Source: Zygnema cylindricum (lineage: Eukaryota; Streptophyta; Zygnematophyceae; Zygnematales; Zygnemataceae). From it: a DNA stretch of 64,000 nucleotides. The notes under the pieces are model-generated. The model saw only the letters and a list, made by a program, of their open reading frames with translations, made no database searches and was not told where the DNA came from. Location of the stretch: contig JBBHKE010001606.1 in NCBI GenBank assembly GCA_037447655.1, forward strand, positions 49,224 through 113,223, written 5' to 3'. Made by a program: the position numbers and the translations under genes. Below are positions 28,056 to 58,256 of the stretch, piece by piece. Numbering within the stretch: position 1 is the stretch's first letter; each line of letters begins with the position of its first letter.

Positions 28056-29521
28056 TGTCAAGCTCATGTGCTTCACAGGCACCCCTTTTATCTTACCAAG
28101 GATTCTCGGGCCTTTTTTCCTCTATACGGTCCTTAAAGTACAAGGAAAGGAGCGCAATCAGCGTGACCACATTCTTCTATTTTCCTAACTGAACGGAACG
28201 CACTTTATTTCGCGCCTAACGGAGGCCGGAAGACAAAGTTACTCCGTTCCAAAGATTACCATCCTGTTACATGTGACAAGTTGCCAACTGTCCTATTGGG
28301 GGCTACATTGTGGAACGCCACGTAACTTTTGGGATAGTCTGGTAGATTTTGCTGTTGGCTATCAGTAGGAGGTTAGTTCAGGTCCTCCAGCCGAATAGAG
28401 CATTTATTAATGTGAGTCAAAGTTAGGCGTTTCACGTCAATTTAGAACTTTGTTGCTCAAAATTGTGTCATAGAAAACCACGTGGCTTCTAATCTAGCCG
28501 GAGATAGTCGCCTAACTTTTTGCCCCGAGTGTAGTACCACCTGTTTTGTCTTATGTCCGTACGATAACAATTCCTGGCCGGTGATTGGCTCCTAGTATTG
28601 CTTTGACTTTGGTACTTTCGGTAGACAAACTTGGCTTGTATAAGGCACTTGGGGCCGAAGGAGACAGGTTGTTGTTTCAGTACTGTCTCCTGAGAAAAAC
28701 CATAGAAATTCCAGCAAACTTTCTTGTGGAGAACTTTTGTTTTGCTTCTGCTTGTGACCCTATTGCCATCTTTGTTTGCATCCGTCCTTTGTGGAAATCG
28801 TAGTCCGGTTGGGTGGTTGGCACCGTCTTTCCTGTTTTGGGCGGTTTGGGGACTGGTGTTTGTTGGAAATCAAGAAGGGTCTTGCCGGTTCCGGGTCGCG
28901 GAAACCGAGGAGTTAAGGAGGCCCTACCTGTCCGGGGTTTTCAGGGGGAGATTTTGTCTCCTTTTGGTTGTCCACGTTACGTTTTGGGGGTAGGTTGAGC
29001 TCGCTTGCTATTATTCCACATCCTAACTTTATATCTCTATTTTCTAAAGGCAAGGTGATATTATTAATTCTGAGACAACATTTTTTTATTTCTATTCTTT
29101 CATTTTTTTCTGAGTGGAAGCATCTTGGTTCTCTCTTTGGTAGTCCTTTTTGGGGCTTTGGTCGGGTTTCTTCCGGGGTCGATTACCAGAATCTTTTGTA
29201 CCAGAATAGTGGATTTTGAGAGGATTTTTGTTAGGCTTCCAACAGATAGTCACAAATCAAGGACCAGGCTCCACCTCTAAGGATTCCCTCCTTTCCTCCG
29301 GCCAGGAGGGGAAAGGAGAGGGGGGGGGAGGGGATATCTTTCGCCCTCCCCAAGCACTCATCCCCACCTTTGCAGGCATGCTCACAGGAACAAGGCGGGC
29401 AGCATTGAGCACAAGCATGGTTGTGGGGAGCATTCTCATTCTGGGGAAGGGTGTTTGCATGACTCCAATGCCAATTACCCGGGCAGTGGGCCCTCCTCTG
29501 ATGTTTCCGGCACGCTCGACA
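28056..29521 (+). repeat. Solo LTR of the methyltransferase family (D1)
   Basis: Begins TGTCAAGC and ends GCTCGACA. The first ~1.1 kb matches the reverse complement of 57610 to about 56430, the 5' LTR of D2. Shared blocks include GTTAGTTCAGG, AAAGTTAGGCG, CACTTGGGGCCGAAGGAGACAGG and CAAGGTGATATT. The last ~0.5 kb matches 57720-58256. TAAC flanks both ends (28052-28055, 29522-29525), a likely short target duplication. No internal coding. Confidence 0.75.
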
Positions 29522-36748: not shown

Positions 36749-36771
36749 CTCCCCTAAAGGTTTAGACTCAG

Positions 36772-37330: not shown

Positions 37331-38300
37331 TTAAAGAGCCAACAACAGCTGCGATGTCGGGCCTCGTGCAGTTCATTAAATATATGAGGCTACCGACTAC
37401 CTGCCTGTATGGTTTTGATGCCATAAAGTCCTCCTCCCCTAACTCTAGGCTCTCAGTGACTAGAATTCTTGATTCAGAGTCACTTCCCTCTAATTTCTGC
37501 CGGAATTCCATAAGAGTTACACACCCTTTTACTTCCTTCATTTCAAATTTTTGAAGCATGGAACCTATGGCTTCCTTTTGAGTTAGCATTATCTTTCTCT
37601 TATTTCTATCTCTCTCTACTTGTATCCCTAATATATATTTGGCTTCACCAAGATCCTTCATCTCAAATCTGGAGTTTGAGGCTCCCTTAATACGATTTAT
37701 TTCATCCATAGATTTGCTGATAAGCAGCAGATCATCTAGATATACAGCAATATAGAGTATCCCATCATTTCCTTGTAAAACATACACAGAATGATCTAAA
37801 AATAATCTTTTAAAACCTAGTCCAGTTAGGAACTCATCCAACTTCAAGTTCTATTGTCTAGGGGCTTGTTTCAGCCCATACAAGGATTTTAGCAGTTTAC
37901 AAACTAGTCTTTCCTTTCCTGTCTCTTCATACATTTCTGGTTGCTTCATATAGAATGTTTCTTCAAGCTCTCCATGAAGAAAAGCTGTCTTAACATCCAT
38001 TTGATGAACTTCCATATTTTCAATTGCAGCTGGACTTAACAAAATTATGTCTGTTGGAAACCTTACCACCGGAGAGAAGTTTCCTCAAAATGAATTCCCT
38101 CCTTCTGATTGTAACCCTTTGCCACAAGTCTGGCTTTGTATCTCTCGATTGTTCCATCCGGATTTAACTTAACTTTGAACACCCATTTGCTGCCAAAAGC
38201 TTTCGCGTCCGGAGGAAGATCAACTAACTCCCACGTTTGAGCCTCCATTATCGATTTCATCTCGTCATTTGCTGCCTCAATCCCATGAGTTCTTTCGGTT
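37047..38300 (-). pseudogene. pol: Copia reverse transcriptase of E
   Basis: From the N-terminus: [35 protein letters not shown], a one-base shift near 38065, [16 protein letters not shown] (first Asp), [10 protein letters not shown] followed by TAG (37851-37853) where relatives have Trp, then VYLDDLLLIS (YLDD instead of YVDD) and GEAKYILGIQVERD. Catalytic residues persist. Confidence 0.88.
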
Positions 38301-39804: not shown

Positions 39805-40947
39805 CTAGACACTCATGCCACAAGCATAGTATATATTCTTTGCAGGTGTAGTCTTTAGAGTAGTAAAAAGGCGCTTGTTCCAACACATGTGAGCCGATGC
39901 TCCTTTATCCATGATCCACCCGGCGTCCTTTGATCCTTCCAACGCTGCCGCCATTGCAAATAACTCCGATGTATACTGCTCATCGAAATCAGAGGACTCA
40001 TCTTCTTGAGTTACAGAAGAAGAAAACAAGGAATTATTTTGTAAACGATTACCAGAAAAGCCCTGATTAAACTGACTTTGCTGCAACCCTGGCCTATATA
40101 AACCAGTTTCATTTGCCTTCTTGAGCTTATGACAGTACCTAAATCCATGGCCTTTCTCTGAACAGTAAAAGCATGTAGTAAAAGACTGCCTATTTTGCCC
40201 TTGATTAAATTGATTAAACTGGCCTAGATTCCTAGGACCTTGATTTCTAAGCTGATTAAACTAATTCTTTGACTGATTAAACTGACCTCTTCTGTCAAAA
40301 TCTGTGTTAAAAGCTTCTACTTGTTTTACTCCATTTAGCATTTTTGAGGTAGACTCTTCTTCCAAAATAATATTGATAGCTAACTAAAGTGTCCAACAAG
40401 ACTTATCATGCTTTTTCAATTCAGCAGATGCATCTTTCATACTGCTAAGAAGACCTCTAATGATTAAAGAAGCCTGCTAAAACTCTGGGAAAGAGACACC
40501 AGCACACGCATGAGAATCAATAAGAGTTCGAATGTTATCAATAGATTCCGCCATCGTTCCCCCCGAGTATTTGTAATCCCAGATTTTTCTTGCCAACAAA
40601 AGCTCCCTCTGAACATTCGCCTTCTCATAAGACGATTTGAGGGAAGTCCAAATATCAATCGCCTTCTTCATTTTGATTCGAGACATAACCATGTTCTCCG
40701 AAAGGCAAAGCTTCAAAGAGTTTTGAGCTGACAAATTTTTCTTTGCCCATGATGGATCTACTTCATCAAGAGATCCATCTATAACCTAAAGCAAACCTGC
40801 AGTTTCAAAATATGACTCAACCATATCCGCCCAGTAAGCATACTTCTGCCCATTAAAGACTAGTATTCTTGGAGACAGGCCCATAACCTATTGTTCTATG
40901 ACTATCGTTACACGTGGAGCTGCAGCAGTAGTGGTAGAAGTAGACAT
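39805..40947 (-). pseudogene. gag: Copia Gag and protease start of E
   Basis: ATG 40947-40945 lies in the LTR, 56 nt before its end. The frame runs without indel to 39805 and beyond but is interrupted by TAG at 40888, 40786, 40477, 40384, 40261 and 39805. Visible parts are a Ser/Thr/Ala-rich start, the Gag core (FNGQKYAYW, ARKIWDYKYSGG), a Gln/Asn-rich stretch with a knuckle CFYCSEKGHGFRYC near 40165, and a protease site WIMDKGASAHMC, in which the usual Ser after Asp is Lys. Confidence 0.82.
40878..40888 (-). other. Primer-binding site of E
   Basis: GGTTATGGGCC sits three bases after the LTR end AACA. It is shorter than in A1 and A2 (11 nt of complementarity) and directly follows an in-frame TAG. 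Confidence 0.65.
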
Positions 40948-42854
40948 AACTTACACAGAAGCTAACCAAGAAACCAATCAAACACTGATGTTTCACTCAC
41001 TATAAAACCTGATCCACAGGTACAAATTACACCAAATTCAGCATAAAATATCACCAGCATACACATTCTCAATTCCCAAAATTACAGCACAATTGAACTT
41101 GTAAACCATAAGATATGACATTTGCAAGTTTCACAAAAACTGCATTCACATTTGCATTATCTCAAAACTGGTTAACAAAATGTTTCTAAGTCCTAGACTT
41201 TAATACACTGAGTGTCTATCTACTGATCCTTTTGACCAATGAGATTGTATTATCTGAATAGTTGTAATGTACTATAGTACGACGGAGTACCTAATGTACT
41301 TCCAAAAAATCGCGTTTGCCATTAATCTAAATCAAGCAGTGTCACACTAAATTTTGCAATTCTGTGTCCTCCATTTAGACCAAGAATGAGGAAGCCTCTA
41401 GGTAGTTTTTGATTAACCCACTTTCAACGAGAGCAAATGCTACCGTAGCAGATAAATAGGTTACTTGACTGCACCCTTGTACAGATTGGACTACCCTGAG
41501 TCCACAGCAAAAAGAATCACTGAAAATGCCTTACTAGGCAATTAATTATCAAGTGGCAAAGATGCCAATATATATACAAGCTTGTTGGGAGAGAGACGGC
41601 TACCTCCTCAATCCTCTAAGTTCTAAACCCCTCTCACAACCCCTATCTACTGATGTACGAACCAATCAAAAGACTGTTCAGTACAGACAAGTACTATGGC
41701 CGATGTACTTTCTGTACGGCTAGTGTACGACAAGGCCATGGAGTGGACGTCTGTCTCCTTTGGACTTGCCCATATGCTCCCCGGGATTCCCGCTTCTCAA
41801 TGATATCTTGCCACATGTCGATAGGTCATGTTACATCCGCAAACCGCCAAGCCGGCCATTCCGGGATCCCGGTGATAGTGCGGGCCGTTGGATCCAAACC
41901 GGCTTTAATTCCAAGCCGTTGAAAAACAAATGTCCGGTACATTTGTTTTGTGCGCACTTAATTCCCCAACTGGTTTCTATGTATCCTATTTGTAATTCCG
42001 TTAATCGGATTAGTTGTCTATCTATTGCTTAAATAGCTGTCGAGCCCTATGTATCCTAACGGACTACTACGACAGAGTGGTAAGGGTTGACGGCTATGCC
42101 TCGCCTTACCGGTCGGAGGTTCGAGTCTTGTCGGACTCAACCCTTTTGATTGAGAGTGACTTAGGTCACTCTTAAGCCCTGCCTATGAAGCTAGGGCAGC
42201 CATGGTTCCACCGCCCTCTCTCTCCTTCAGTGACTGCAACAAGTATGGGGGCTAGAGGGAGAAGGTGGAGGCAGACTGCCTTTGCTTTTCTTTTCATTTT
42301 TATATTAATTAACAACTAGAAAATATCTCCCATAAATCTAGTGATTTCAACAAACTTAAATTCACCAAACTCTAGAAACCGTTTGTTCAGGTTTTTTTCA
42401 TTTGGCGCCATACACACAATGTTGCTGCTTAATCAGCAGTAGTCAATTAAGTCCAACTGGCTGTGGTTAATCTTGTACGAATATTTGGAGTGCTTACGAA
42501 GTATTTCATAACCTGTGGTCCACACTCAAATTGTAACCGTAAGTTCAGTTCAAATCGACGTCATGTATTTATTCTTCACAATGTTTTTTCCAGATGTCCG
42601 GTATTCCTTTTCGTCCGTCGGATGCGCCGGTTCGACTTCTTTCGATGTGTTACATGTGTCAAGATTCATTCCAATTTCTCTATTGTCCCTCATACTGACG
42701 CGTGTCCATCAGACCGTACACTACACTCAGAGTTACTCATCCACCGTCACACTATAGAAGGTAAGTATTACAACTTCAAGGACCCAAAAATATTCTAAGT
42801 TATAAACCTCCCCTCACAACCTTATCTACTGAGGATAAAGCTTTGAAACCAACA
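40892..42854 (-). repeat. E 5' LTR interrupted by an A4 LTR
   Basis: Sense parts 42854-42353 and 41354-40892 are E sequence (about 965 bp together), split by the A4 LTR at 41355-42352. The 3' part ends with the gag start codon and AACA before the primer site. Confidence 0.78.
41355..42352 (-). repeat. Solo A4 LTR nested in LTR E
   Basis: Plus-strand ends TGCAATTCTG and TTTCAACA, 998 bp, sharing the A-family blocks (TACTGATGTACG, CTGAGTCCACAGCAAAAAGAATCACTG and others). Flanks are AATTT and AACTT, a 4-of-5 match compatible with a decayed 5-bp duplication. Confidence 0.75.
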
Positions 42855-43450
42855 TGTTCGTACATTTTTGCACCTTTTAGGGTTATTTAAGGGATTTTTA
42901 GGGCTTTAGAGTACATTTCCTTACATTCCGTTTGTGTGAGTATAACTGGCCCACGCTTTTCATATATGTACGTACATCGTCCGTATTTTCCGTACCTTTT
43001 AGGGTTATATATTCTAAGGTTTGTATGGTACATTCCCGTACATTCTCGTATATTTCAGTACTGTTGCGCTACACTTTTCCTACACTTGCTACACTTTTCG
43101 TACAGCTACGTACATTAGTCGTACATTTTTGTACATATTAGGGTAATTAAATGGGGGGTTTTAGGGTTTCTACTTTCTAAGGTACATTGCCGTACTTTCC
43201 TTTATATTTCAGTACGGCTACCCAAGATTTGCCGTACCATTCGGTTATGTAGGGTACAGTTTTCGTACACTTTGGTACATTTCTGTATTTTTCCGTACAT
43301 TTTAAGATTTTTTAAGGATTTTCTATGATTATGTTTTTCGTACGTTTTCGTACATGTTCGTATAGCGAAAACTAAACGAATTTTACGAAATATATAAAAG
43401 ACGCGATTAGTGCATAAAAATCGGAAAAAATTACAAATTCGTACGATTAG
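42855..43450. repeat. GTAC-rich degenerate repeat
   Basis: Short variants of CGTACATTTTCGTACATT and GGGTTTTAGGG recur throughout without a fixed period. No gene. Confidence 0.5.
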
Positions 43451-44706
43451 GACAACTGGGGACGCACCCTTAGGCAGTACGGCGCTAGGTTTTACTGGAA
43501 AACGACAGAAAGAAAACCCTTACTTATGCACATGGGGTATACCGTTATATGGTCTAAACTTTGGAAATTAACTCAACGGTTTAACAAGTGAAACAAATGG
43601 ACCACAACTAAAGATGTTTAGACAATATAAAACCGTAAATAAATATATGAGCGTTTATTCTAACACTGGTATAAGCCCACAACTGTCGGAAAACATTGCA
43701 TTTGTCATTTGTGTGTTGTCGTGTAGCCTAACTTTATAAACCCGCAATAATAAAAAATGGTTAACGCTTCCGGCGTGTCGCTCTGTCATAGCAAAAGCGA
43801 ATTAAATGGAAGCATGTTCTGACAAAAAATAATCCGCTAAAAGTTGGACTTTCCCATAAGAAAGCCCAACGCGCTGCGCCACCCGCCGCGCCACACGGCG
43901 CATATAGACGATATCCATAGTTTTGATCTTTAGTTGGGTATAGTTTGAGGGTTTAGCGTCTAGGTTAATTTGTAGTGTTTCCACAATTTGGTTTTGTTGT
44001 ACTTGCTTTCTTTCTTTCCTTTTAGGCTTTTCACGCATTTTTGTTGTGTTTTTAGTCTTTTAGGATTTTGGTCTTTAAACTTTGTTGGTCATCAATACTT
44101 TTTAGTGACAATCATGTTTTGTTCTTTGATGGTATAACCATCGTGTTCTTGGAAATAAAATCTTATTTTTTCCCATCATCATGAAAGTCGTTTGTTTCCT
44201 GCATACAGTATGTATTCGTAGCAATCCGTACGCTAAATTAATTGTTCACAGTCTTGGAAGATTCTCCGAAGGTTCAATATCAGACATGGACCGCTCGATT
44301 TCGTATTACATTTTGCATCCACAAGGCGTTCGCTCCATTGAGCCAGTGGAAGACAACCGTCGCCAGAGCGAATTTCCCACTGACACCGAATGAGCTCTCC
44401 AAGTGGCGCTTGATGACAAGTGCCAGAAAGGGCCGCTCATCAGACTGAGTGGATGCAAAAACACAATTTCGAGGGGGAGCAATTGAAGTTGACCTTCCAT
44501 CAACATTAAAATTGAACTGGTACGTTTTGAAAAGAATAGAATTTTATTGCCAAAAACGTTATGGTATGACCATCGCAGTACAAAACATGATTGTAACTAA
44601 AAATAGTTGATGTCCATCGACTAACGAGATGTGCCCATATAATCGGTACTTAGAATAATTGTTTTGGGGAATTGCTAATCGCATGACAATTTTTGTTGCG
44701 CGCAGG
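43451..44706. other. No gene seen
   Basis: A minus-strand GGCGCAGCGCGTTGGG stretch near 43860-43890 resembles a tRNA D-arm but has no B box. Frames at 44181-44506 carry no known motif. Confidence 0.45.
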
Positions 44707-45167
44707 TACACCGCGAAACGTTATTAGTGTCAATGACTCTAATTTGGGTTCTTAAACTTTTGATTTTTTTTTCAAATAGGATACATGATTTTAATTTTTC
44801 ATTTGCGTTAATTAAGATACCGTACAAAATAGCGTAAAGCTCGAAAGTACAATAAAATCTAGATAGTGTGGTGTACGGTCGATATCAGACCGTAAATTAA
44901 TGTACTTTTTCAAGTGAAAATTACAAAAAATTGAATTAAATCAGAAGCGCACGCATATGAACGTGCGCTAAAAAAAAACGGGATTAGTCTGACACGTAAA
45001 TTAGTGTGGCATGTATGGATATTATAAATTCGAGGCTTTCTAATATTTTTTACGGATGCATATATTAATAAATATAATCGTACGGCGAATACTCCATTTA
45101 GCATCAAGTAAGGTAAATTTTCTACAACACTATTTAAACTTTGACACTAATAATGATTCGCAGTGAA
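44707..45167. mobile_element. TIR MITE, copy 1 (461 bp)
   Basis: Begins TACACCGCGAAACGTTATTA and ends with the inverted counterpart (TAATAATGATTCGCAGTGAA). No coding capacity. It abuts the palindrome at 45168. Confidence 0.65.
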
Positions 45168-46783
45168 GTTGTCAAAAATTGTATATTTGAAGTACAATAT
45201 AGTACAAGTTACATACCTTTGACTTCAGAATTAACGATCAATCCGTCGAACAACTTTGACTGGCAAAATATTGTAACGACGTTTAAAAAAGTGTCGCGCT
45301 TGCGAACGTCGATCGTCATAAAAAAAAACATCAATTCATACGGCCAGCCAAGGTTTGCGGTAACAAAACTGCGGCAACCACATGGAAATAAATTAACTGC
45401 CGCATGTAGTTTCTCACTTCACGTGAGCTCCACTATGAAAGCACATGTTGGCATTTAAGTGTGTACTATATTTTGTTTATATGTGCGCATTTTACTTTTT
45501 CCGTGAATGTGAATCAATGTGAACTACGTTGTCAACGTAGGAATGTTGATTTTTAAATAGTGTGGCTTCATTTGGTCGCGCGTGACGACGCGCTTTTTTA
45601 TCATTTAGTTTCATAGATATTTTTAGGCCGTTACGCTTTTTTATCTTGTACGAAGTTTATTTCGTTTCGTGCGAGATAATTTATACATATGACGTCGTCC
45701 TTTAATTTGTGTTCAAGTTAGCTTAACGGTTCGCCATTAGATTCCATTTTTGCAGCTAGAGGTATGGTTACATCAGACAAAAAGTGAGGTTTAATACATA
45801 ATTTTGAACTTGTCCTTACCATGCCCTACTATATTTTCGTGGAGTTTCGTAAAAACAACATTACACAAAATAAGGTTACAATTCTCCAAGTATCCGGGAG
45901 AAAACATTGACTGTCCGATTACATTTTGGTTTTCATCTGCGAAGCAATCCCGCTATTTGCCCGAGGTGGGTTCACTAATACACAGGCGGATGGAGCGATT
46001 GCTTCGCAGATGAAGACCAAAACGTAATTGGACGGTCAATGTTTTCTCCCGGATACTTGGAGAATCGTAATCTTATTTTCTGTAATGTTGTTTGTAAGAA
46101 ACTCACAAAAATATAGTACGGCATGGTACGGACAAGTACAAAATTATGCATTAAACCTCACATTTTGTCTGATTTAACCATACCCTTAGCAGCAAAAATG
46201 GAATCTAATGGCGAACCGTTACGTTGAACTTGGACACAAATCAATGGACGACGTAAAATGTAAAAATTATCTTGCACAAAACGAAATAAACTTCGTACAA
46301 GATAAAAAAGCGTACCCGTCTAAAAATATCGATGAAACTAAATGATAAAAAAAACGCGTCGTCACGCGCGACCAAATGAAGCCACACTATTTACAAATCA
46401 ACATTCCTACATTGACAACGTACTTCACATTGATTCACATTCACGAAAAAAAGTAAAATGCGCACATAAAAACAAAATTTAGTACGCACTTAAATGCCAT
46501 TATGTGCTCTCACAATGGAGCTCACGCGAAGTGAGAAACTACCTGCGTGCAACCATTTTATTTACATGTGGTTGCCGCAGTTTTGTTACCGTAAACCTTG
46601 GCCGGCTATGTGAATTGATGTTTTTTTTTATGACGATCGACGTTCGCAAGCGCGACACTTTTTTAACCGTCGTTACAGTATTTCGCCAGTCAAAGTTATT
46701 CGACAGATTGACCGTCAAATTTGAACTCAAAGGTACGTAACTTGTACTAGAGTGTACTTCAAATGTACAATTTTTGAAAACTA
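45168..46783. repeat. 1.6-kb near-perfect palindrome
   Basis: The left arm (45168 to about 45955) and right arm (about 46000-46783) are reverse complements with few differences and a spacer of about 45 bp near 45956-46000. Shared landmarks are GTGTCGCGCTTGCGAACGTC, TCACGCGCGAC, and TCTCCCGGATACTTGGAGAA. The frames at 45141-45458 and 46539-46730 are mirror images and show no known domain. It could be a foldback transposon or an inverted duplication. Confidence 0.8.
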
Positions 46784-46854
46784 CCAGCGCGCATCAAAAA
46801 TTTTCTTGCGATAAGCAATTCCCTTATTTTGGATTTCATGAACATTCTACGAAC

Positions 46855-47410
46855 TACACCAAAGATTGCTATTAGTGTTTAGAAATTATTAGTGTTAATA
46901 ACTAATTAGTGTAATAATGCTAATTTGATTTTTACAACATTTCAAAAAAAATGTTTAATTCTAATTTATCCATATGCTGATTTAGGTACACCGGATTTAG
47001 TGTAATTATATATACAGTAAAATAGTTAAAAGTACAAAATATGACAATCCGTACAACATCGCGTCCTTTTACTATAATTAATCTTTAATTCTAATTTGGC
47101 TTTGCGAACGCGTTTGTCGCAAGCTCGACTTCACGTTTATTCTAAGCGCATTTCTGTATGCAACCGACATAAGTTAACTACATTTTTCGTACGATTTTTC
47201 CGTAACAAAGTACATTGTTGTACAAGTAAACATCTTCCGTACAACACACTATTCAGGAAATGCGTACGTCATAATTGTTAATGCTAATTTACAAGAACTG
47301 TAATTAACGTTAAAGAAAAATTAGTGATGTTAATTCTATTTCAGGTTTCGTTGTCAAAAGTTGGGGACACCGATATAGAGTACATAAGGCTAATAACGAT
47401 TCACGGTGTA
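46855..47410. mobile_element. TIR MITE, copy 2
   Basis: Starts TACACCAAAGATTGCTATTA and ends TAATAACGATTCACGGTGTA, the same terminal motif as copy 1. Non-coding. Confidence 0.6.
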
Positions 47411-47413
47411 TTG

Positions 47414-47953
47414 TACACCGCGAATCGCTATTAGCGTATAAGATTAAATAGCGTATAAAAATAATTAGCGTCTTAAACACTAATTGGGAATTTGAAAATT
47501 AAAAAAAAAAACATATATCCTAATTTTTTATTAATGCTTATTTGGGATTTTCAAAAAAATAAAAAAAAACCCTAAACATGCTTACACTATTATAAGTATC
47601 CGTACAAAAACTTTGAAATCACGTCACTTAATTTTAGCGGCCGTACTTGTTAGACTATTTTATGTCAATTATAATTTTCACTTTCTTCCAGTGCACATTC
47701 ACATGCGCACCCTCCTATGTTAAATTATTTTAAATTCATTTTCACTTAGAAAGGAACAATTGTGTACGGTCTAAAACTGAAAGTACACCACACTATTTAA
47801 ATCGCAGTGTACTTTCGATATTAATGCTAATTGGAACAAAACCCTAAAAGGCGTAAAGAAAAAAAAAGAATAAGTAATGCTCTTTAAGAATTTGGGTCAA
47901 ATTTTGGGGGAATCAAATTAGCGTTCGTTACGCTAATAGCGATTCACAGTGTA
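47414..47953. mobile_element. TIR MITE, copy 3 (540 bp)
   Basis: Starts TACACCGCGAATCGCTATTA and ends TAATAGCGATTCACAGTGTA. It is separated from copy 2 by only TTG, so the two inner ends form a near-perfect 40-bp palindrome. Confidence 0.65.
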
Positions 47954-48264
47954 CTGAAGTTTTCTCCACCTTCTTGTTTACAATTTTCAACGGCCCAAGC
48001 TTTTTATTTTATGCTCAATCGATCAACATCCGTACAACATTTCGGAACTTTAAATCAAAAATGATGTCGGCAAATGATGCCGGCAGGGTTCAAACCAGGA
48101 TACAGAGAAATAGATGTTCCCATATGAGTCTGGGCGTCTACATCTACATCTGACGTAAGAACCTGCCTTACGTCTTCCTTACGCTTTAGTCTGCGACGAT
48201 TCTTCATGCGACCCGAACCTCACGCCTCGTAAAATGGTTATCTCGGAAGTACAGTACGGTATGC

Positions 48265-49440
48265 TACACCGCGAATCGTTATTAGCGTGTAAGTTTTTTT
48301 AGCTAATAAAAATAATTAGCTTTAGGTACGCTATTTAAGAATTTGAAAATTTTGGAAAAAATCAAACATTCTAATTGTTTGGTTATGGTAATTTGGATCT
48401 TTACCATAATGAAATGTAGGTTGTAAACCTGCTTACAGTAATAAAAATAGCCGTGCAATTTAATTCAGATCGTACCCCATCACGTAACACCATAAATCAT
48501 TCTTACGTACATGTCAAAATATTTCACCGCAGTTAGGCGTCATGTATTCGCCGTTAAGTATACAATTTTGATACAGTTGTACGGAGTGTAATTTCTACGC
48601 ATGTATCGATTACGCAACGCTTATTGTTTCAACGGTTGGTCGCTTTTCCGTTTTACGTCGACAATGTACGGTAATAAGGGTTCTTTACTCTAATAATGTC
48701 GCGACGTTTGTTTAATTAGCGTGAATTTATGCTAAAATGTGTGTTAATTCTAAAATGGATGCATTTTCGTTTGTCTCACTAATTTGTGACCGGTATTAGC
48801 GTTAATGTAATGACGTAATAGAGTAAACTCCTATTCTAAATTGGTCCCAACTGTATAATCTCACCAACCACCTCGTCTCAAGCGTTTCGTGATTGGTCGC
48901 CCAAATTTACACGTGGACAATTTTATATCCACGCAAGCATTACAGCTCCAACATGACGTGACACCAACCGCATTTCATACCCGTTGCCATTACAAGTTGA
49001 TCCGTAGGTACGTCAAGAAGCAGGCAGTTACCATGGCTCTTTCATAAAAATCGTCGGTCGCTTATCACGTGCATACCCCGTCTCAAAATTGACGAAAAAT
49101 TTGAAACTTTCCCGCCTTCTTTGTGTCGTCAAAAATATTTGGACAACTTGCTGTCACGCATAATATTAAAATTTAAATTTTGACGACCGAAAGTAAAGGG
49201 AATGGTTTCCCTCCCTTTTTCCCACAATTGGGTTATATATTTGGTATTATTATCTGGCGTTTGGTCCAACAATGACACTGTCTTTCCGCATCCTTCAGTT
49301 ACCTTGACTTTTGTTTCTCTATTATTTGCTTTGTATCATCATTTGGACAAAAAGTCAGCTCTATTAATCGCAAAATGTGGCCTATTACTTCCCATATTAC
49401 CACTTTTTTTGCAGTGAAAAACACCGCTACAACGGGTTTA
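48265..49440. other. Possible MITE end, otherwise no gene
   Basis: TACACCGCGAATCGTTATTA at 48265 is another left terminus of the MITE family, but no matching right end was found. The rest is AT-rich; a 71-codon hydrophobic frame at 49202-49417 has no supporting context. Confidence 0.4.
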
Positions 49441-49523
49441 TTACCACCCCTAACTGAACAGGACATGGATTGTACAGAAACCCAAGGACCAGACCCACGG
49501 AACGATGAAGTGGATCACCAGAC

Positions 49524-49752
49524 GTGGACCCCCTCGTGGAAGGCGCTGTGACCGAAAATTTGGACCCACCGTGTGATAAATACGGGAACGTCCGGATGAC
49601 GACCCAAAAAGTTCAGCAAGTGTCAACGAAGGTTACTCGACTTCGAGTAATCAATTGGATGATTGCTGATTGTCACGCGAATGGAAAGGATCTGCTCATC
49701 CCGAGGACTGTCAAGAAGTTTCCGCAACATTTTTCGGGGGGGTATCGTAAAA
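49524..49752 (+). CDS. Possible exon of an unknown gene
   Basis: The frame contains QQVSTKVTRLRVINWMIADC and then PRTVKKFPQHFSGGYRKS, which has the look of an N-terminal helix-turn-helix-like segment seen in some transposon-associated proteins; that resemblance is from memory and weak. It is followed by AAA and GTAAGAG, a good splice donor at 49753. A basic frame at 49941-50126 could be a later exon but is unproven. Upstream, the frame may extend back from the first ATG to about 49470. No family is claimed. Confidence 0.35.
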
Positions 49753-49859
49753 GTAAGAGTTTTATCCATTGTCCTTACCTTTATGTAGCAACCCTCGATT
49801 GCTTATTTTTTGTGTCGTTGTTTCCCATTGTTTGTAATTGAATTTTACATATTCAATAA

Positions 49860-50400
49860 TTTATAAATTGTTTATGTCCCCCTCGTATTGCATGTTTGTC
49901 CATGCCATATTCTTCCCCCTAACCATCTCGTGTATTTACGATGGTTTTTATACAACGTCGTCCAATTGCTCTTTGCTTTGTGTTGAAACGTATGTACCGG
50001 CGACGACATAGTGTCGTTGCCGGTATGCGTGAATTTAAGTGTACTACATCTGAGTTTCGGCAATGTTGGAGAAATCAAAAAGCAACGACAATGCGTCGTC
50101 GCTTGAACGTTGGAAATTTCCAATGAAAACGTCGTCCGGTTAATCATCTAGGCGACAATACAACTTAACGTCTAACAAATGTTGCATACGTGACGACGTC
50201 CAATATTGAACCCGCGTGGTAAGTGAAACGTGGGATTCATTTTGTTTTATCGTCGCCCCACCGTTGGAATTTTCAAACGCATCGGATAGGGTTTGAAGTA
50301 ATTTCGTGCATGGCCATTCGTAATGTAAGTATCCCTCGCACGAAATAGTTTATTTTTACGTAATAAAAGTAGGGTTTTATGTCTGTATTGTTTACTGCAC
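49860..50400. other. No gene seen left of the methyltransferase element
   Basis: Contains an inverted CGACGAC/GTCGTCG pair near 49990-50030 but no LTR of the D family, so the 3' end of D2 is missing here. Confidence 0.45.
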
Positions 50401-50410
50401 CCTCCACTCT

Positions 50411-51331
50411 TCATAGCCAAGCGTGGCTATTAGGAAAAGATACCAGAGTTGGGAGGGCCCTCAGTAGATACCCAGGCTTATTACAACAGAAGAAGGGTGC
50501 TTTGTCGGCTATGATCACCGGTGTGGCCATTCGCCCCGGACCGAGGATCTGTTGGACCGTTATGTTGGGATTTGTAACCTGTGTTCTCAACAGCTGTTGG
50601 AGGATTGGAAGAGGAACCAAGTTGGTCCAATATGCCCGAACTCTGTGGGCTCTTGATCCGATCTGAGCTGCATCAAAAACTATGGGAGTCCCTAGAACCT
50701 TGGTCACTTGGTTCCAGCTGCTGACCACCTGTTTTCTCTTATCATCTGTGGGGTGAACGTTTTCCAAGACGTACCCCACTGGTGTGTCCTGGCGTTCCTG
50801 TAACCGTGTTATTAGTCTGGTCATTTGAAAGAAATTTCTGCTACGGACGTCCTGGTGTCCTCGGCCCTGTCCTGCTAACGAATACCCCTGGCATGGCCAT
50901 CCAACGACCACCAGGTCTACCCTTCCGAGCTTTTCCAGATGAGACTCTGTGATATCATCCACATTCTGGGGAAGCGTGCGATGAGAGTTAGACATGGCGG
51001 ACACCAGAAGTTGTTGTGGGTAAGGTTCGTGCAGCTGTTGCAGGCGGTACTCACTGACTGCACGGGCGTCCGGGTCTATCTCGAATGCCGAGTAAGTTTC
51101 TATTTGGTATCCAGCTTTCAGGACGGCTTCCAGATCGGAACTAATGCCAGAAAATAGGGATAAAATCCTAAGTCCTGAAAGCGGGATTTGTAGTGACATC
51201 ATTTGTCGATTAAATTCTTTCCCTTTTTTAGGAACCGTTGGTAGTTCCGACCGGGGGACTTTTGCTGCTCCGGGTGATATTGTAGCCAAGCTCCTGTCCA
51301 CTTCCCGCCGAAGTGTGGCCATCTGTACCAA
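50411..51331 (-). pseudogene. DNMT3-type cytosine-5 methyltransferase domain, truncated
   Basis: Motifs in order: ILSLFSGISSDLEAVL (motif I, AdoMet binding, about residues 56-71), DLVVVGWPCQGYSLAGQG (motif IV, catalytic PCQ at 146-148), VLENVHP (motif VI, ENV), and FDAAQIGSRAHRVRAYWTNL (motif VIII). The AHRxRxYW form is typical of DNMT3-like enzymes. It would transfer a methyl group from AdoMet to cytosine in DNA. The frame ends at LPTLVSFPNSHAW (start of motif IX), so motif X, which completes the AdoMet pocket, is missing. The printed 5' end is not a true start: the frame continues upstream to the UAG at 51377-51379 and beyond into protease. A bacterial restriction-system origin is unlikely given its fusion to Gag and protease. 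Retroelement-encoded relatives have been described in algae. Confidence 0.88.
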
Positions 51332-51376
51332 TCGGTTCTGATACTCCTTTTCCCACCGCTTGGAAATAGGGAATTG

Positions 51377-51991
51377 CTAGATAGAATCAGCGATATCGTT
51401 GGAGTATTTGAACAGCTCCGAGGGGGTTGAGGCAGAGTAGACGCGATAGCATCTAGACACCGGAACAGTCGTTTTTCCCCGGTTCCACAAATCCAAGGGG
51501 ACCACCACTTTTGTTCCTTCCGGATCCTCAGGGTCTGAGAATCTAACTTGTTCTTTCCATACGCTCAACTCCATGTTCAACCTTGTCCACGTAGCCATAC
51601 CCAGCAAAATTTCAAATTGCTTACCTTCCACCACTAGGAAGGGAAGCCGAATCTGCACGTGCTGGCCTGCGTCGTCAGCAAATTCGATTTCCATGGCTTT
51701 TATGATCCCATATACGGGTTGGCTGCCACTGCTGACTGTGCTCAAGCATATGTCACTTGGACTGATTTTTGGCCGGAGTTCCTCGTGCATTTGTTGTAAC
51801 GCTGATGTAGTTATTAAGTTTGGAAGAGCTCCGGTATCCACCACTGCATCCTGGTACCCGCCGTATCCATTAAGTTTAAAATCTCCCGTCCTGTTGAGAA
51901 TAAGAGCCACCGAAAGGGCCTTATAATCCCTATTTGCCATAGACGTTTTTGGTTCTACCGACATGAAGACTGTCTTGGGCGGTTCTGCCAA
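51377..51991 (-). CDS. Retroviral-type aspartic protease of D2
   Basis: AVVDTGALPNLIT at about residue 50 carries the catalytic Asp-Thr-Gly, and EILLGMATWTRLNMEL at about residue 127 is the second conserved region (ILLG). Length (about 200 residues) suits a retropepsin domain with a linker. It lies in the same frame as Gag upstream, from which it is separated only by the UAG at 52034-52036, and as the methyltransferase downstream, separated only by the UAG at 51377-51379, which is followed by CAATTC. It has no ATG of its own near the start, so production by read-through or reinitiation is implied. Confidence 0.82.
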   Translation of the reverse strand: MAEPPKTVFMSVEPKTSMANRDYKALSVALILNRTGDFKLNGYGGYQDAVVDTGALPNLITTSALQQMHEELRPKISPSDICLSTVSSGSQPVYGIIKAMEIEFADDAGQHVQIRLPFLVVEGKQFEILLGMATWTRLNMELSVWKEQVRFSDPEDPEGTKVVVPLDLWNRGKTTVPVSRCYRVYSASTPSELFKYSNDIADSI

Positions 51992-52033
51992 CGCGACCCT
52001 TTTCCTCCTAGTGTGAATTTCTTCCCCTAATGC

Positions 52034-55000
52034 CTAAATGAGGGTTTCTTCGTGCAGATTGTGGGAGGAAGCCAGCGTTTTGATATGCGTCAAGGCGTAG
52101 GGCATTAAGTGTCGTACTAGCATAATTGCCGGTTTCGAGGAAGGAGGGAGAGCTTTGGGCGATGAAATGGGTGAGTCCTCGTCTTCCGATTTCTCCTGTC
52201 CCCCCCCCCCTGCTTCCTCACTCTCTGCGTCAGAATTCCCCGTAGGAGGTGTAACTGGCGGATCTGGGGACGGTCTCTCAGCCATGTATCTGTCAAACCA
52301 CTCCTGATCTGTTTCAGTGGTTGAAGTGTTTTCTTTTGACTGTGTCTTCTTGTATTCTTCAAAACCGGGAGGAAGTTTCTTCGGAGCCGGAGGAGGCGGG
52401 TTAGTCGGCTTGAGTCCCAGTCCAACGTTACTCTTTAGAAGTACTGCTCGCGGGGTAAAGGATAAGGGGCCGGTGGCTTTGCGACTGTGGTCCTTTTGTT
52501 CCATCGGTTGTTTGTCTTTTCTTTGGGAGGACGTTGTAGAGCGCAGTTGCCTGCGACTGTCCCCTACACCAACGTTCCATGCTCCGGACAGAAACGTCCT
52601 AGCATGCTGAGCCTTTGGAGGCTCCATATCCCAACCCATCGGGTCATCCTCATATCCACCCAACGTGGTCTGCTGCTCCAGCTCCGCTAGCTTTTGTAGT
52701 AGTTCTTGCTTTTGTTCCTGCAGTTTCTGAGCCGGCGTAAGAGGTTGAGGTGTGCGGGCAGAGGATCTCAGTCGGAGAGCGGCCAGTTCTGTTGCCAAAG
52801 CGGCCAACTGAGTGCTCTGTTGCTGAATGATATGTTCCGGTGTCAGTCTGCTGGGCCGCGGTTCATTTGGAGATCGTCCCCATGGATACAAAAGTTGCAG
52901 TGGCAGAGGATTAACGACAGTTTCCCCTTCGCCTGTAAACAATGCATACTGCGTCATTTCCTTCGGAACCCCATTTTTCCGAAAGCATTGCTCTTCTTTG
53001 TGGCCCATGAACCCACAAGCTTCACATTTTGACCCTTCAGTAGTATACTTCCCCCTGAGCTCATTAGAGATTTGAGCGTCATCGAATTTCGGAAGTCTGA
53101 TTTGTCTCAACGGGGATTGAGACATTTTGGCGGTTTCAGAGCGTGGAGTAGGTTTATAGGTTTCCTTAGTGACCGGGGTTCGGTCTCCTCCTCCGCCTCC
53201 TTGCTTGCGTTCTTGTTGTTTCCTTGTTCTTTCCGCCCGCTCCCTTTCAAACTCCTTCTGCTTGATGGCGAGTTCTGGTTTGAGCTTTCGGGGGCACCTC
53301 TTCCATCCGTGACCTGGCTGGTTACAGTTCAGGCAATCGTAAAGAAAAACCTTTTCATCTCCCCCCATTGCAGGTTGTGGGCGGGCCTCCGCTTCTTGTT
53401 TCCCCTTAAGCTTCCGCAAAGCTTGCAATTCTGTTTGTTCGTCATGGCTGAGCGGTGTTTCCCCGGCGAAACCTGCAAAGTTGGCTCTGGATTTCCCGGT
53501 AACAGCCTTTTCTCGTGCCTCGCTATTAACAAAATGATCATACAATTTCATAGCAGCCAATGAAATTTCTTGAGCTGTGGGATTCCGATCGTGTATAGCC
53601 TGACTGGCGCTCCAATTGTCCAGGGCTGCCTGTCCTGTTGGCCCGAAGGAATTTCGAACAGCGACATAATATTTGGTGGCCATAGCTGGTGTTTCGATGG
53701 TGGACAGTTTGGTCTTCTGGCAGAGGCTGGAGAGGCGGTTGAACAACGTCTGGGGAGTTTCATTCTTCAAACAGCGGAAGTCTGTGAACTCCTTGATTGC
53801 AGTTTCGTTCCTTTCGGTGTAAAGGAGTCTCCAAGCGTCCAGAAGAGTGGTACAGGGATTAGGATTGGCAACCATCCTGGTGGCTGCTTCGGCTTCCTGT
53901 ACCGCCTGCAGGTGGTTGACATAGGCCCTGCCTTGGGCCTGAAGTTTCATATCCATGGTGAAAGTGGCGGTGAGAGGAGCTGCGGCTGCGGCAGCCAAGT
54001 CGGCTGCTGCCTGAAGAGCCTCGGCGTCCAGAACCGGATCCGATATTTTGATACTGGGGGCCATTAACAAAGGTTGACGCTCCTTATAATCGGCCAAAGC
54101 TCCTCCGGCTAGATAATTTACCATCATCGGAAACAGGGTTGTTTCAAAATCTGCTGGAATGGCCCCTCCCCTGTATTTGTTAATTTCGGACTGCGTGAAG
54201 GATTTCCACAGCAGCTCAAAATCAGAGAAGGCAATTCCCGAGTTGTCCCCGGTGAAGATCCGGACGTCTCCCATTTCTTTTTCCTCCTCTGCAAGGTTGG
54301 TGAACTGTGAAGAGGATGGTCCGGTTGGGCTAACAAACTGGACCGGTGAAATTACCCCTAGATCTGCGTTGTCTGGCTCGGGCCCGCCTCCTTCTCCGGT
54401 AGAGGGAGCGGTCTGACGAGAGATGGCACTCCCCCCCACTGAGGAAGTTATGGTTACGGGTGGAATAGTGAGATGACCAGTATCTCCTGGGAGTTGGCCC
54501 TTGGGAAACGAGGAGCTTATCACCTTGGGAAAAGCTGCCCGAAGTCCTGCTCCTCTATACCCAGGAGAGGCCCGTTCCTCCCGTTGAAGTTTTTCCACCG
54601 AGGGAATGTGGAGAATGGGTTTAGTCACCGGTGGTCGTTGAGGGATTGGTGGAGATGACGGAGGGCTACGAGGTAAAGGTGTCTGTCTCCGTGTACGTTT
54701 TGTGGAGGTTTTTGGGGGAGGAGTTCCTTTGCTAGAACCGGGAGAACATCGGTGAGGAGGAGAGTAGGCAGGAACGTCGTACTTGTAGGGTAAGACGGGT
54801 GGTCCCGGTGACCCACGGACTGCAGCGGGCGGAGTAACAGAAGGCGAAGGAGAGGATGCCTGAGGTGGCGATGGAGGAGGAGTAGTAAGTCCGAGGGAAA
54901 TGTGTAGTCTCCGGTCTGGTTGTAGCTGCACCACGGCCTCCACGGTAGAAAATCCTTTGACCGAGACAAATGTGGGGAGATCTGTAGCTGCGGCGACCGG

Positions 55001-55309
55001 ATCACTCGGCAAATCTGCACCCAACCCCTTTTTGTTAGGCCCTGTTGTTTCCTCCCCTTTTCGCTGAAGAGGAGATTCTGGTCTTCGTTTGCTGGAAGTC
55101 CGGGGATCTCGCGTGACAGGGGGAGTTGCCTGATCCAGAGGTGGTAATTCCGCCGCGGGACCTGTTCTACGGGGAGGTGCTACCTGTCCACTAAGGATTC
55201 CCCCAAATCTCCGTCTAGCCTCCCGTATCAGGATCAGCTCCTGTTCGAATGCTTTCTTCCTTTCCTCTTTAAGGGCATCCCAATTTATTGCGACGGGTCC
55301 GGCCCCCAC
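52034..55309 (-). CDS. gag: Gag of D2, main part with two zinc knuckles
   Basis: A 1091-codon open frame. The first ~300 residues are Pro/Ser-rich and disordered-looking. Residues about 340-640 form the capsid-like region (FTGDNSGIAFSDFELLWKSF to about AREKA), with an alanine-rich helix near 430. Knuckle 1, CLNCNQPGHGWKRC, is at about 655 and knuckle 2, CEACGFMGHKEEQC, at about 762, separated by a lysine/arginine-rich coil. A leucine/glutamine-rich coiled coil follows (about 830-890), then an acidic C-terminus. It would coat and package element RNA. It ends in UAG with the protease in the same frame. An uninterrupted 3.3-kb frame suggests that selection or recent insertion has kept it intact. 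Confidence 0.85.
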   Translation of the reverse strand: MGAGPVAINWDALKEERKKAFEQELILIREARRRFGGILSGQVAPPRRTGPAAELPPLDQATPPVTRDPRTSSKRRPESPLQRKGEETTGPNKKGLGADLPSDPVAAATDLPTFVSVKGFSTVEAVVQLQPDRRLHISLGLTTPPPSPPQASSPSPSVTPPAAVRGSPGPPVLPYKYDVPAYSPPHRCSPGSSKGTPPPKTSTKRTRRQTPLPRSPPSSPPIPQRPPVTKPILHIPSVEKLQREERASPGYRGAGLRAAFPKVISSSFPKGQLPGDTGHLTIPPVTITSSVGGSAISRQTAPSTGEGGGPEPDNADLGVISPVQFVSPTGPSSSQFTNLAEEEKEMGDVRIFTGDNSGIAFSDFELLWKSFTQSEINKYRGGAIPADFETTLFPMMVNYLAGGALADYKERQPLLMAPSIKISDPVLDAEALQAAADLAAAAAAPLTATFTMDMKLQAQGRAYVNHLQAVQEAEAATRMVANPNPCTTLLDAWRLLYTERNETAIKEFTDFRCLKNETPQTLFNRLSSLCQKTKLSTIETPAMATKYYVAVRNSFGPTGQAALDNWSASQAIHDRNPTAQEISLAAMKLYDHFVNSEAREKAVTGKSRANFAGFAGETPLSHDEQTELQALRKLKGKQEAEARPQPAMGGDEKVFLYDCLNCNQPGHGWKRCPRKLKPELAIKQKEFERERAERTRKQQERKQGGGGGDRTPVTKETYKPTPRSETAKMSQSPLRQIRLPKFDDAQISNELRGKYTTEGSKCEACGFMGHKEEQCFRKNGVPKEMTQYALFTGEGETVVNPLPLQLLYPWGRSPNEPRPSRLTPEHIIQQQSTQLAALATELAALRLRSSARTPQPLTPAQKLQEQKQELLQKLAELEQQTTLGGYEDDPMGWDMEPPKAQHARTFLSGAWNVGVGDSRRQLRSTTSSQRKDKQPMEQKDHSRKATGPLSFTPRAVLLKSNVGLGLKPTNPPPPAPKKLPPGFEEYKKTQSKENTSTTETDQEWFDRYMAERPSPDPPVTPPTGNSDAESEEAGGGGQEKSEDEDSPISSPKALPPSSKPAIMLVRHLMPYALTHIKTLASSHNLHEETLI

Positions 55310-55358
55310 CGTAGCCTTATTCGCGATCGCAGAATCTCAACCAATTTCTGGGTGCTGC

Positions 55359-56333
55359 TCACCACACCCGAGAGATCCGCAATCCCGAAACCGGGTACCT
55401 CTGGGTCCGTAGGCCTTGAACGCCATAGTCTTTCGGATGGTCGGACAACTGGTGCGGAAGGAGACATGAACTTGGGGAAATTGAGGCAAAAGGAAAGAAC
55501 AACTCTTCTTTGACTAGGGGAGCAAATCGACCTTTGCTATCCTTATGGTTGAACCGGAAATCTCTCTTAGGCTCAGGTATCTTCCGCTTGCTACTCCCTT
55601 CCCTGGTCCGGCCCCGAGAAGTTGCTCTGCCCCTAGAAAGTCTACTGGTAGCAATTTCCTGAGATATGGTGGGCTGTTGTCGTGCAGTAGACGGCATCTC
55701 CGGTTGCTCTCGGGCTGAGATGGGAGAGCCACTCTCGGACGAGCTACTCAAGATCTCCACTACTCCTCCCACTGGGCGTATGATCCGGGCTCGGTCGCTT
55801 CTGGCAACCCGCTGCACCAGCTCCTTCTTAACCTTCAACTCATGAATATTGTGAAGGGCTAGAATCTCCTTACGACCGGATCGGTTAGGATCCGACAAGA
55901 GTTCAGGATCCATGTATGTCTCCACTATTGGAGCCTTGGATGTGGTATAACGTACCACCTCGGGGGGGTGGCCTGGGACCGCTTCCTTGTGAGTCAAACC
56001 CTTTCTACGAGATCGGGGAGATAAAGGTTGTCTTTCTACCTTCCCAGTGGCCCTAGCCCTAGCGGCCTCGGACAACGTCGGAAAGTTTTCAGGGGAAAAG
56101 ACTGGAGGAGGTGGAGGTGAGGGTCGCCTCTTTGTCGGCCTCGGAGGAGTCCCGACGACAACCGGCTGGGGCATCATCCCCTTAAGAAACTGTTCAATGT
56201 TCAAAGCAGAGGTGAAAGGGACCGATTCCTCAGGCACCTGGGACTCTTCCTCTTGTGCCACCCCTTCTTGTCTTTCCTGTTCTTCCGGACTAACACCGGA
56301 AGGATCCCTATCCGGAGATTCTCCTCCTCCCAT
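55359..56333 (-). CDS. gag: Gag N-terminal part of D2 (separate frame)
   Basis: ATG 56333-56331 is the first good start after the LTR. The 324-codon product is Pro/Glu/Ser/Arg-rich with no fold recognised, containing a basic GRTREGSSKRKIPEPKR stretch. The next protein-like stretch, 55285-55467, is in a second frame and the main Gag in a third, so two shifts separate this start from the main Gag. They may be mutations in a formerly single Gag, or one may be a programmed site. Role inferred only from position. Confidence 0.6.
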   Translation of the reverse strand: MGGGESPDRDPSGVSPEEQERQEGVAQEEESQVPEESVPFTSALNIEQFLKGMMPQPVVVGTPPRPTKRRPSPPPPPVFSPENFPTLSEAARARATGKVERQPLSPRSRRKGLTHKEAVPGHPPEVVRYTTSKAPIVETYMDPELLSDPNRSGRKEILALHNIHELKVKKELVQRVARSDRARIIRPVGGVVEILSSSSESGSPISAREQPEMPSTARQQPTISQEIATSRLSRGRATSRGRTREGSSKRKIPEPKRDFRFNHKDSKGRFAPLVKEELFFPFASISPSSCLLPHQLSDHPKDYGVQGLRTQRYPVSGLRISRVW

Positions 56334-56429
56334 GACTTACACGAGCAAAGGAGCTAGATCTCTCGGATAAAATACACCACCCTAAGCAGCTTATCCTCTT
56401 AAACAAAAGGGGACAGGTCGGCTTTTCAG

Positions 56430-57610
56430 TACTGTGCTCCTCCGCTGGAAGCCCACTAAATGCCACACTCCCAGCTACTCTCCAAAGAATAGGAAGGAAA
56501 TGAGAGTCGTCCGATCCTTTCCGCAAAAACTCCGGACAACCCCAAAGATGACCACAAGAGTGTGCAAATAACTCCCACGCAGAAATATAGAAATAATAAA
56601 TATCAGCTTTTCAGATTAAACAATATCACCTTGACCCAGAGAATGAAATTAAAGATAGAAATGAATGATAATGGTGAAGCGAATTCACATACCTCGGAGT
56701 GCAACGATGGCCAAACTCAGCAGAAGAAACCTCTCCCAATGGCCCCGAAGACCGGTATGAGTCTCCGTCAACCCTCCCGGTTCCACCGCAAGGATCCGAC
56801 AAGACTCTTCTTAGTTTCAAACAGCGAAAGTCCAAACCGCCCAAAGAGGGGATAGTGCCAACTACCCACCCGTGCTACTGTCTCCACAAAAGACAATCCA
56901 AAACAAAGATGGCAATAGAGTCCACGACACAATACAACCGTTCTCCAACAGAAAGATTGATTATAATTATCTGGGGGTTTTCTCAGGAGACAGTACTGAA
57001 AAGCAACCTGTCTCCTTCGGCCCCAAGTGCTTTATACAATTTGAGTTTGTCCTACTGCAAGTTCCAAAGTCAAAGCAATTTAACAAGCCAATCAGCGGCC
57101 AACAATTGTTATCGTCCTGACATAAGACAAAACAGACTGTACAACACTCAGGGCTAAAATATAGACGACTGGTTTCGGCTGAATTGGCGGCCGAAGGTCC
57201 TTCTATAATACACAAAATGGAAACAAAGTTCTGACTCGACGTGAAACCGCCTAACTTTGTCCCTACGTCATAAATGCTTTGCCCGGTGGTTGGGCCTGAA
57301 CTAACATCCTACTGACAGCTAACAGTAAGATCTACGGGATAATCCCAAATGTGACGTGTCGTTCTCTAAGGTATCCCTCTGCTAGAGCTACATAGAACAC
57401 ACACTATAATGGATCAGACACTTGGCACCGGACTAACTCCTCAGATCGACCTCCGTTTAAGGGGAACTAAAGTGCGTAGTGTTCCAAGATGAAAATAGAA
57501 AGATCTGATGGTCCTTTTCCTTCTCAGTACGCTAGAGTCCGTACAAAGTGGAATGAAGCCCCGGAACTCCTGGGAGTGCAAATGTGCCGAAGATGCACAC
57601 GCGCTTGACA
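56430..57610 (-). repeat. D2 5' LTR
   Basis: Sense start TGTCAAGCGCGTG at 57610. Matches D1 (28056 on) through GTTAGTTCAGG, AAAGTTAGGCGG, CACTTGGGGCCGAAGGAGACAGG, TTGCCATCTTTGTTT and CAAGGTGATATT. The inner end is uncertain: similarity to D1 fades near 56430 and no clear primer site was found. Confidence 0.7.
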
Positions 57611-58256
57611 AAGCTGCGGACACCGAAGGTTCCACTAGTACCATACCTTTTGACGATACTATCGGGAGAGGGGTCGCCTTTTTCTAATTGTCATCGTTGA
57701 TTCATGGGGTATGTTAATCTTGCTTTGCTACATTTCACATTTTCTATCTTTTATTCTCCATTTTGGGGCAAGGAGATATTATTAAATCTGGAAAGCCAAT
57801 CATATTGATTTATATATATCTACGTGGTAGTGCATTTGTGTCTTCCTCTAGAGTTCTCTTTGCTTTGGAGTGACAGATCTGGAGTAAAGTGAAACCCCCT
57901 GGATCAGGACAGTGGGTTTTGAGGCAACACGTGCGATAGACTTCCCGTAGACAACGCACTAATTGGGATATCAGCCCGATTACAAAGACCCAAATCCATT
58001 TCCCGGGCCAAGGGGGGGGGGGGGGGGGGGGAGGGAGGGGGAGGGGATAACTTTTGCCTTCCCCTTGCGCTCATCCCTATTCCATGTCCAAGTATCTCCC
58101 TTGTTTTGCATGCATATCTATGGGAGGGATGTGGGCAGCAGTGGGTATGATCATCATTTTGGGGAGCATTCGCATTCCGGGTTTATTTGCAAGAGTCTAA
58201 TGCCAACGACTACGGGCTGTGGGCCCTTCCCTCACCTTAATCAGGCATGCTCGACA
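57611..58256 (+). repeat. D-family LTR fragment D3, inverted relative to D2
   Basis: Matches the last part of D1 (about 28900-29521) and ends GCTCGACA. It contains a G run at about 58013-58031. Lying head to head with D2, it lacks its own first half. Confidence 0.75.

Follow-up and report, generated by a model that had tools for sequence, protein, structure and literature searches.

A decayed LTR-type retroelement of Zygnema cylindricum with a DNMT3-like methyltransferase in its likely polyprotein

Why would a selfish element carry the tool of its own silencing? The puzzle was raised, and left open, by a 2018 study, and it returns in a 64,000-nucleotide stretch of Zygnema cylindricum DNA (assembly GCA_037447655.1, contig JBBHKE010001606.1, positions 49,224 to 113,223 of the forward strand), here called the window, whose own numbering is used throughout. 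An earlier note, made from the letters alone, had proposed that a long terminal repeat (LTR) retroelement at 50411–57610 carries its own DNMT3-type DNA methyltransferase, and had pointed in general terms to precedents in algae and dinoflagellates. Such precedents are on record as KnitGypsy-Dnmt3 of Klebsormidium nitens and SymbioDIRS-Dnmt3 of the dinoflagellate Symbiodinium (de Mendoza et al., 2018; PMC5890265). Taken as a whole, the locus is best explained as the decayed remains of an LTR-type retroelement with a polyprotein that led from Gag through protease to a DNMT3-like methyltransferase, a reading we consider likely; that it is a DNMT3-bearing element of the LTR type, preserved in its 5' part only, we hold a shade more firmly still.

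The coding unit and its methyltransferase

Four open reading frames (ORFs) make up the coding part of the element:

52034..55336, minus strand: Gag-like ORF, 1100 codons, ending in TAG at 52034–52036
51377..52033, minus strand: aspartyl protease ORF, 218 amino acids, ending in TAG at 51377–51379
50411..51376, minus strand: DNMT3-like cytosine-5 methyltransferase ORF, 321 amino acids, ending in TGA at 50411–50413
55359..56333, minus strand: upstream ORF with an ATG at 56333, in a frame other than that of Gag, no Pfam match

In the ORF list the first three (55336–52034, 52033–51377 and 51376–50411) follow one another with zero gap and in one shared frame, so that the order Gag, protease, methyltransferase in a single minus-strand unit, as first proposed, stands. 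Between 55336 and 50411 this frame holds three stops in 1642 codons (TAG at codon 1101, TAG at codon 1320 and the final TGA), where the remaining minus-strand frames have 55 and 76. None of 500 single-base shuffles brought the emptiest of three frames below 48 stops. The frame is thus protein-coding and not a product of chance. The upstream ORF (56333–55359) does not read on into Gag: the frames differ and the junction is interrupted, so that the present copy is damaged in any case. The G+C content of the unit is 0.47–0.59 per 200-bp bin; immediately below, seven of eight bins have 0.35–0.44 and one has 0.51.

The Gag-like ORF contains two CX2CX4HX4C (CCHC) knuckles, at 53294–53335 and 52985–53026, and its first in-frame ATG lies at 54272–54274. 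The protease carries the motifs VVDTGA (51827–51844) and ILLGM (51596–51610) and matches Pfam Asp_protease_2 with E = 1.7e-4 and 22.7 bits, slightly under the curated cut-off of 24.3. The methyltransferase matches Pfam DNA_methylase with E = 1.6e-12, and all four motifs named beforehand were located: I at 51134–51172, IV (PCQ) at 50879–50902, VI (ENV) at 50753–50767 and VIII at 50627–50665. Its ORF begins right after the protease stop, with a first ATG only at codon 19, and is intron-free, unpermuted and open through motif VIII. Codon usage correlates at 0.66 between methyltransferase and Gag, at -0.17 to 0.20 between methyltransferase and the six copia ORFs of the window, and at 0.20 with the upstream ORF.

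In cytosine-5 methyltransferases motifs IX and X follow motif VIII, and phage enzymes served for comparison on this point. Here the coding sequence stops at 50411, before both; the copy is truncated as the earlier note had said, only not within motif IX but ahead of it. A simple six-frame pattern search of the window returned nothing for motifs IX and X, and the sequence beyond the break turns A+T- and CpG-rich, the CpG observed/expected ratio rising from 0.71 over 50411–57610 to 1.49 over 44000–50400. With motifs IX and X and reverse transcriptase missing and two in-frame stops ahead of the enzyme, the methyltransferase of this copy is not expected to work, in line with what had been surmised. 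A structure prediction of the methyltransferase alone reached a mean predicted local distance difference test (pLDDT) score of 35 and was set aside as evidence. Just beyond the truncation, the plus strand at 49276–50410 is CpG-rich and shows exon-like open frames with no Pfam evidence; possibly it is the start of a host gene.

To which class does the predicted enzyme belong? Among 177635 distinct PDB sequences its best match is DNMT3A (9e-15), followed by DNMT3C, DNMT3B, HhaI (4.5e-5, the first that is not a DNMT3) and DRM2 (0.0044); DNMT2 chains appear at E 0.038 to 2.1, and the 56 PDB sequences listed to E = 10 include no DNMT1 or CMT chain. A blastp set of ten sequences, with the cellular enzymes entered as segments (CMT the shortest) and DNMT3A as the stretch already aligned to the window enzyme, which slightly favours it, gave 80.1 bits for DNMT3A, 68.6–78.2 for four phage enzymes, 43.1 and 17.3 for DNMT2, 33.9 for DNMT1 and 23.1 for CMT. 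The window enzyme, DNMT3A and all four phage enzymes carry the motif VIII signature R-x-R-x-x-W-x-N, which occurs in none of the four DNMT1, CMT and DNMT2 segments (two of them DNMT2). By blastp score and motif VIII signature, DNMT3-like is the right description. As far as these comparisons reach, the affinity to DNMT3 is clear against the DNMT1, DNMT2 and CMT segments and not clear against DNMT3-like enzymes of phages, which is how far the label DNMT3-type can be upheld.

The same figures bear on where the enzyme came from. Capture from a phage or bacterial DNMT3-like methyltransferase, in place of a host DNMT3 gene, would agree with the closeness of the four phage enzymes to DNMT3A (69–78 against 80 bits), all the more as the choice of segment slightly favours DNMT3A's score, and with tblastn, by which 250 of 50,697 phage records match the methyltransferase; one of the phage enzymes, PD06, has DNMT3A as its own best PDB match. 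An unrooted tree of nine sequences and 152 columns, from which the partial CMT was left out, joins the window enzyme to DNMT3A with a support of 53, which does not decide its position; the pairing itself, such as it is, speaks for DNMT3. DNMT3A also comes first both in the nine blastp comparisons and in PDB (9e-15 against 4.5e-5 for HhaI), and the enzymes of KnitGypsy and SymbioDIRS are reported as Dnmt3 (PMC5890265). We regard a phage or bacterial source as improbable.

Several observations weigh against one retroelement polyprotein with a DNMT3-like enzyme. No reverse transcriptase, RNase H or integrase of the element was seen in the window, and for that reason we give it no superfamily label and do not claim membership in Gypsy; of the other 141 ORFs with at least 85 amino acids, 57 were scanned with Pfam, which found copia-type domains, with rve in one ORF, RVT_3 in one and RVT_1 in none. 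The element is represented by a single copy, and the two internal stops, both TAG and each lying between domains, divide its three ORFs. The Gag label is suggested by the zinc-knuckle pattern and by position, and a Pfam search of that ORF returned no Gag match. The codon usage of the protease correlates at 0.15 with Gag, 0.28 with the methyltransferase and 0.40 with one copia ORF, figures that are noisy at 218 codons; as the best value is the one with copia, the codon test gives the protease no support as a member of the unit. From ENV to motif VIII the window enzyme counts 37 residues, DNMT2 38, DNMT1 and CMT 41, and DNMT3A 31 (DNMT3A together with the phage enzymes, 30–31), so that its spacing, nearer to DNMT2 than to DNMT3A, lends the DNMT3 class no support. 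The alignment had seemed to show a short distance from motif VI to motif VIII as a common trait; once the residues were counted, the argument was dropped. Finally, methylation by the KnitGypsy-Dnmt3 enzyme could not be detected in yeast, a result that its authors call inconclusive (PMC5890265).

The single copy, the TAG between protease and methyltransferase and the missing reverse transcriptase could also be accommodated by a methyltransferase that is a separate host gene or retrocopy, landed by chance behind a Gag–protease fragment. Such an accident would have to yield the same frame at zero gap, 321 open codons after a stop, no ATG of its own at the start and a codon usage matching that of Gag, and we consider it very improbable. 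On the preferred reading of a single decayed element, reverse transcriptase and integrase would have followed downstream and been lost. Searches for relatives gave no confirmed match in viral contigs (methyltransferase, Gag and protease) or genome contigs (methyltransferase), which says little, since these collections hold viruses and prokaryotes.

The terminal repeat, its copies and the surrounding sequence

Three copies or parts of one repeat family bear on the ends of the element:

56522..57610, minus strand: left terminal repeat of the element (LTR-like), starting TGTCAAGC at 57610
28056..29521, plus strand: solo repeat copy, 1466 bp, with TGTCAAGC...GCTCGACA ends and a TAAC duplication
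57611..58256, plus strand: 3' part of another repeat copy, ending GCTCGACA and abutting the left end of the element

The solo LTR announced at 28056 runs to 29521, has TG...CA ends and lies between two copies of TAAC (28052–28055 and 29522–29525). This solo copy with its duplication attests to past movement of the repeat family; the activity claimed for the family holds to that extent, and does not thereby extend to copies that bear the methyltransferase. At its doorstep lies the second copy of an 86-bp repeat (24027–24112 and 27971–28056, with 95% identity between the two); its last base, 28056, is also the first of the solo repeat, and an empty-site continuation did not turn up.

Scored in 120-bp steps, the left repeat of the element is collinear with 28056–29175 of the solo copy, and the final ~300 bp of the family repeat are absent from it. 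None of the solo steps 29156–29275, 29256–29375 and 29356–29475 exceeded the maximum of 30 shuffles anywhere in 57610–50411, whereas the fragment at 57611–58256 scored 102, 213 and 236 on them; the last 46 bp of the solo repeat fell outside these steps, and the repeat scoring used 29523 and 58247 as ends, where 29521 and 58256 are correct. The whole 3' repeat piece scored 231 against 56500–50000 (shuffle maximum 281), and a search of 46000–50500 for the rest of the repeat or a right-hand repeat gave nothing above 5 shuffles. A plant initiator-Met primer binding site, the only primer type sought, was not found beside the left repeat with at most two mismatches; a deletion may have removed this junction. 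Between the point where the similarity to the repeat ceases and the first ORF lie roughly 90–190 bp.

The D-family LTR that had been placed ahead of the unit is thus there with its proper start at 57610 and lacks its last part. With the repeat end missing and no primer site recognised, the link between repeat and coding unit rests on adjacency and orientation and is weaker than had been stated. The left repeat might belong to a different element and have become a neighbour of the coding unit by nested insertion or deletion: the missing ~300 bp with the GCTCGACA end between repeat and ORF, the lack of a recognised primer site and the oppositely oriented fragment of the same family abutting at 57611 would all suit this. 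Repeat and unit are nevertheless co-oriented, the TG start sits at the expected outer end, and only some 90–190 bp part the similarity from the first ORF, which leaves a foreign repeat unlikely in our view, and the repeat as the element's own the preferred reading.

The fragment at 57611 does belong to the same repeat family and extends to 58256, but it is a 3' part only and lies in the opposite (plus) orientation. The likeliest account of the junction at 57610/57611 is a nested insertion of the element into an older repeat copy. A local inversion was weighed for the head-to-head pieces and judged less likely, since the break falls exactly at the element's TG start.

If the repeat is divided into a first part A and a final part B, the left end is A without B, which in a normal LTR element requires a deletion. 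Repeats of DIRS elements run A-coding-B-A-B, and KnitGypsy-Dnmt3 has this same repeat structure together with Gypsy domains (PMC5890265); its repeat order fits the present left end, which is without the last part of the solo repeat. Such an arrangement would predict both an A-only left end and a solo A-B copy arising by recombination between two A copies. A deletion explains the missing B part equally well, and one copy cannot decide between the two.

The K. nitens genome is small, and the 40% G+C, copia-rich surroundings of the Zygnema element are unlike it. At 35853–42854 lies a copia element; between its 896-bp LTRs the minus strand carries pieces of reverse transcriptase and gag-pre-integrase, and the LTRs are 99.8% identical and so mark a very recent insertion. 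The region 42500–50400 has a CpG observed/expected ratio of at least 1.2 in 12 of 16 half-kb bins and holds a near-palindrome of ~1.6 kb (45167–46782), probably a foldback element, whose arms of ~800 bp match in six pieces 88–95% complementary around a 23-nucleotide centre. Farther off, 3217–3510 is a tandem array of 49-bp units built round a CGTACGG core, and words resembling CGTACGG or CGTACA occur again in other parts of the window; two adjoining minus-strand ORFs at 15505–16890 have a zinc-finger-like start and, by eye, a reverse-transcriptase-like stretch (KPNGGIRPIAVGEVLYRLVAR), with no Pfam match. Rfam matches and ARAGORN tRNAs both numbered zero.

In-frame stops and a possible role

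How would an intact relative have made its enzyme? The second TAG is followed by CAATTC, which agrees with the tobamovirus-type readthrough context at five of six positions, a weak sign given a chance of ~5% for such a match at one of two stops, and the sequence downstream of the two TAGs gave no signal of RNA structure (z 0.33 and -1.04). We regard TAG readthrough as possible but doubtful; TAGs that arose from point mutations in an old, decaying copy are no less probable. The Candida element Tca2 likewise has a stop codon between Gag and its downstream enzymes, there a UGA followed by a potential pseudoknot (PMC2194720), unlike the two UAGs without a structure signal found here. A bolder combination would be a lineage with split repeats (A-coding-B-A-B) and target duplication in which two UAG readthroughs meter the methyltransferase, rationing it per particle to methylate the element's own complementary DNA (cDNA); this we rate as speculative and improbable. 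Were it true, the two readthroughs would yield much Gag, less Gag–protease and little Gag–protease–methyltransferase–Pol, and full copies that keep two TAGs and split repeats would reveal a novel means by which a retroelement doses an accessory enzyme.

As to function, an intact relative might make the enzyme within its Gag–Pol chain; the enzyme could then enter the virus-like particle and methylate CG sites of new cDNA before or at integration, which would either protect the cDNA or set the new copy in a methylated state that the host tolerates. Methylation of cDNA seems to us the likeliest role, proposed tentatively, on the strength of the domain order and of two results of 2018: SymbioDIRS-Dnmt3 methylates CG sites de novo in yeast, and KnitGypsy-Dnmt3 copies of K. 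nitens have Ka/Ks < 0.2 (PMC5890265). The discussion of that paper proposes cDNA methylation for the DIRS case (PMC5890265), and an alternative proposal elsewhere sees a role in protecting the host cell from DNA viruses (PMC6338049). An additional family, in which the methyltransferase comes directly behind the protease, is of use in asking whether particles carry the enzyme along and whether it marks cDNA.

Comparison with known elements

Elements with a tyrosine recombinase (DIRS) are expected to have neither an aspartyl protease nor a target duplication. The Zygnema element has an aspartyl protease, its solo repeat has a 4-bp duplication, and a recombinase, had there been one, would have lain in the lost 3' part. 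In these respects it differs from SymbioDIRS-Dnmt3, a DIRS element with a tyrosine recombinase, with which it shares a DNMT3-class domain in a retroelement polyprotein (PMC5890265). The DNMT3-like enzymes of phages (among them Justusliebigvirus PD06 and Bacteroides phage BU2-2) are 28–30% identical to the window enzyme over motifs I–VIII and share its R-x-R-x-x-W-x-N signature; they are phage genes outside retroelements, with a spacing of 30–31 residues against 37.

More broadly, two papers that cite the 2018 work speak of DNMT3 within Copia and DIRS elements (PMC12344493) and of such Gypsy/DIRS-clade elements in several algal groups, not in tracheophytes (PMC6338049). The closest known element is KnitGypsy-Dnmt3 (de Mendoza et al., 2018; PMC5890265), which, compared by description, is likewise of the LTR type and has an intron-free, unpermuted DNMT3-like domain inside its polyprotein. 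Unlike it, the Zygnema element is without reverse transcriptase, RNase H, integrase and a right end, and has two TAGs between Gag, protease and methyltransferase. As KnitGypsy-Dnmt3 was published in 2018, the novelty of the present element is lower: it is not a first discovery but a further, decayed case of the DNMT3-bearing LTR-type retroelements described then, whose two in-frame TAGs and repeat arrangement are worth following.

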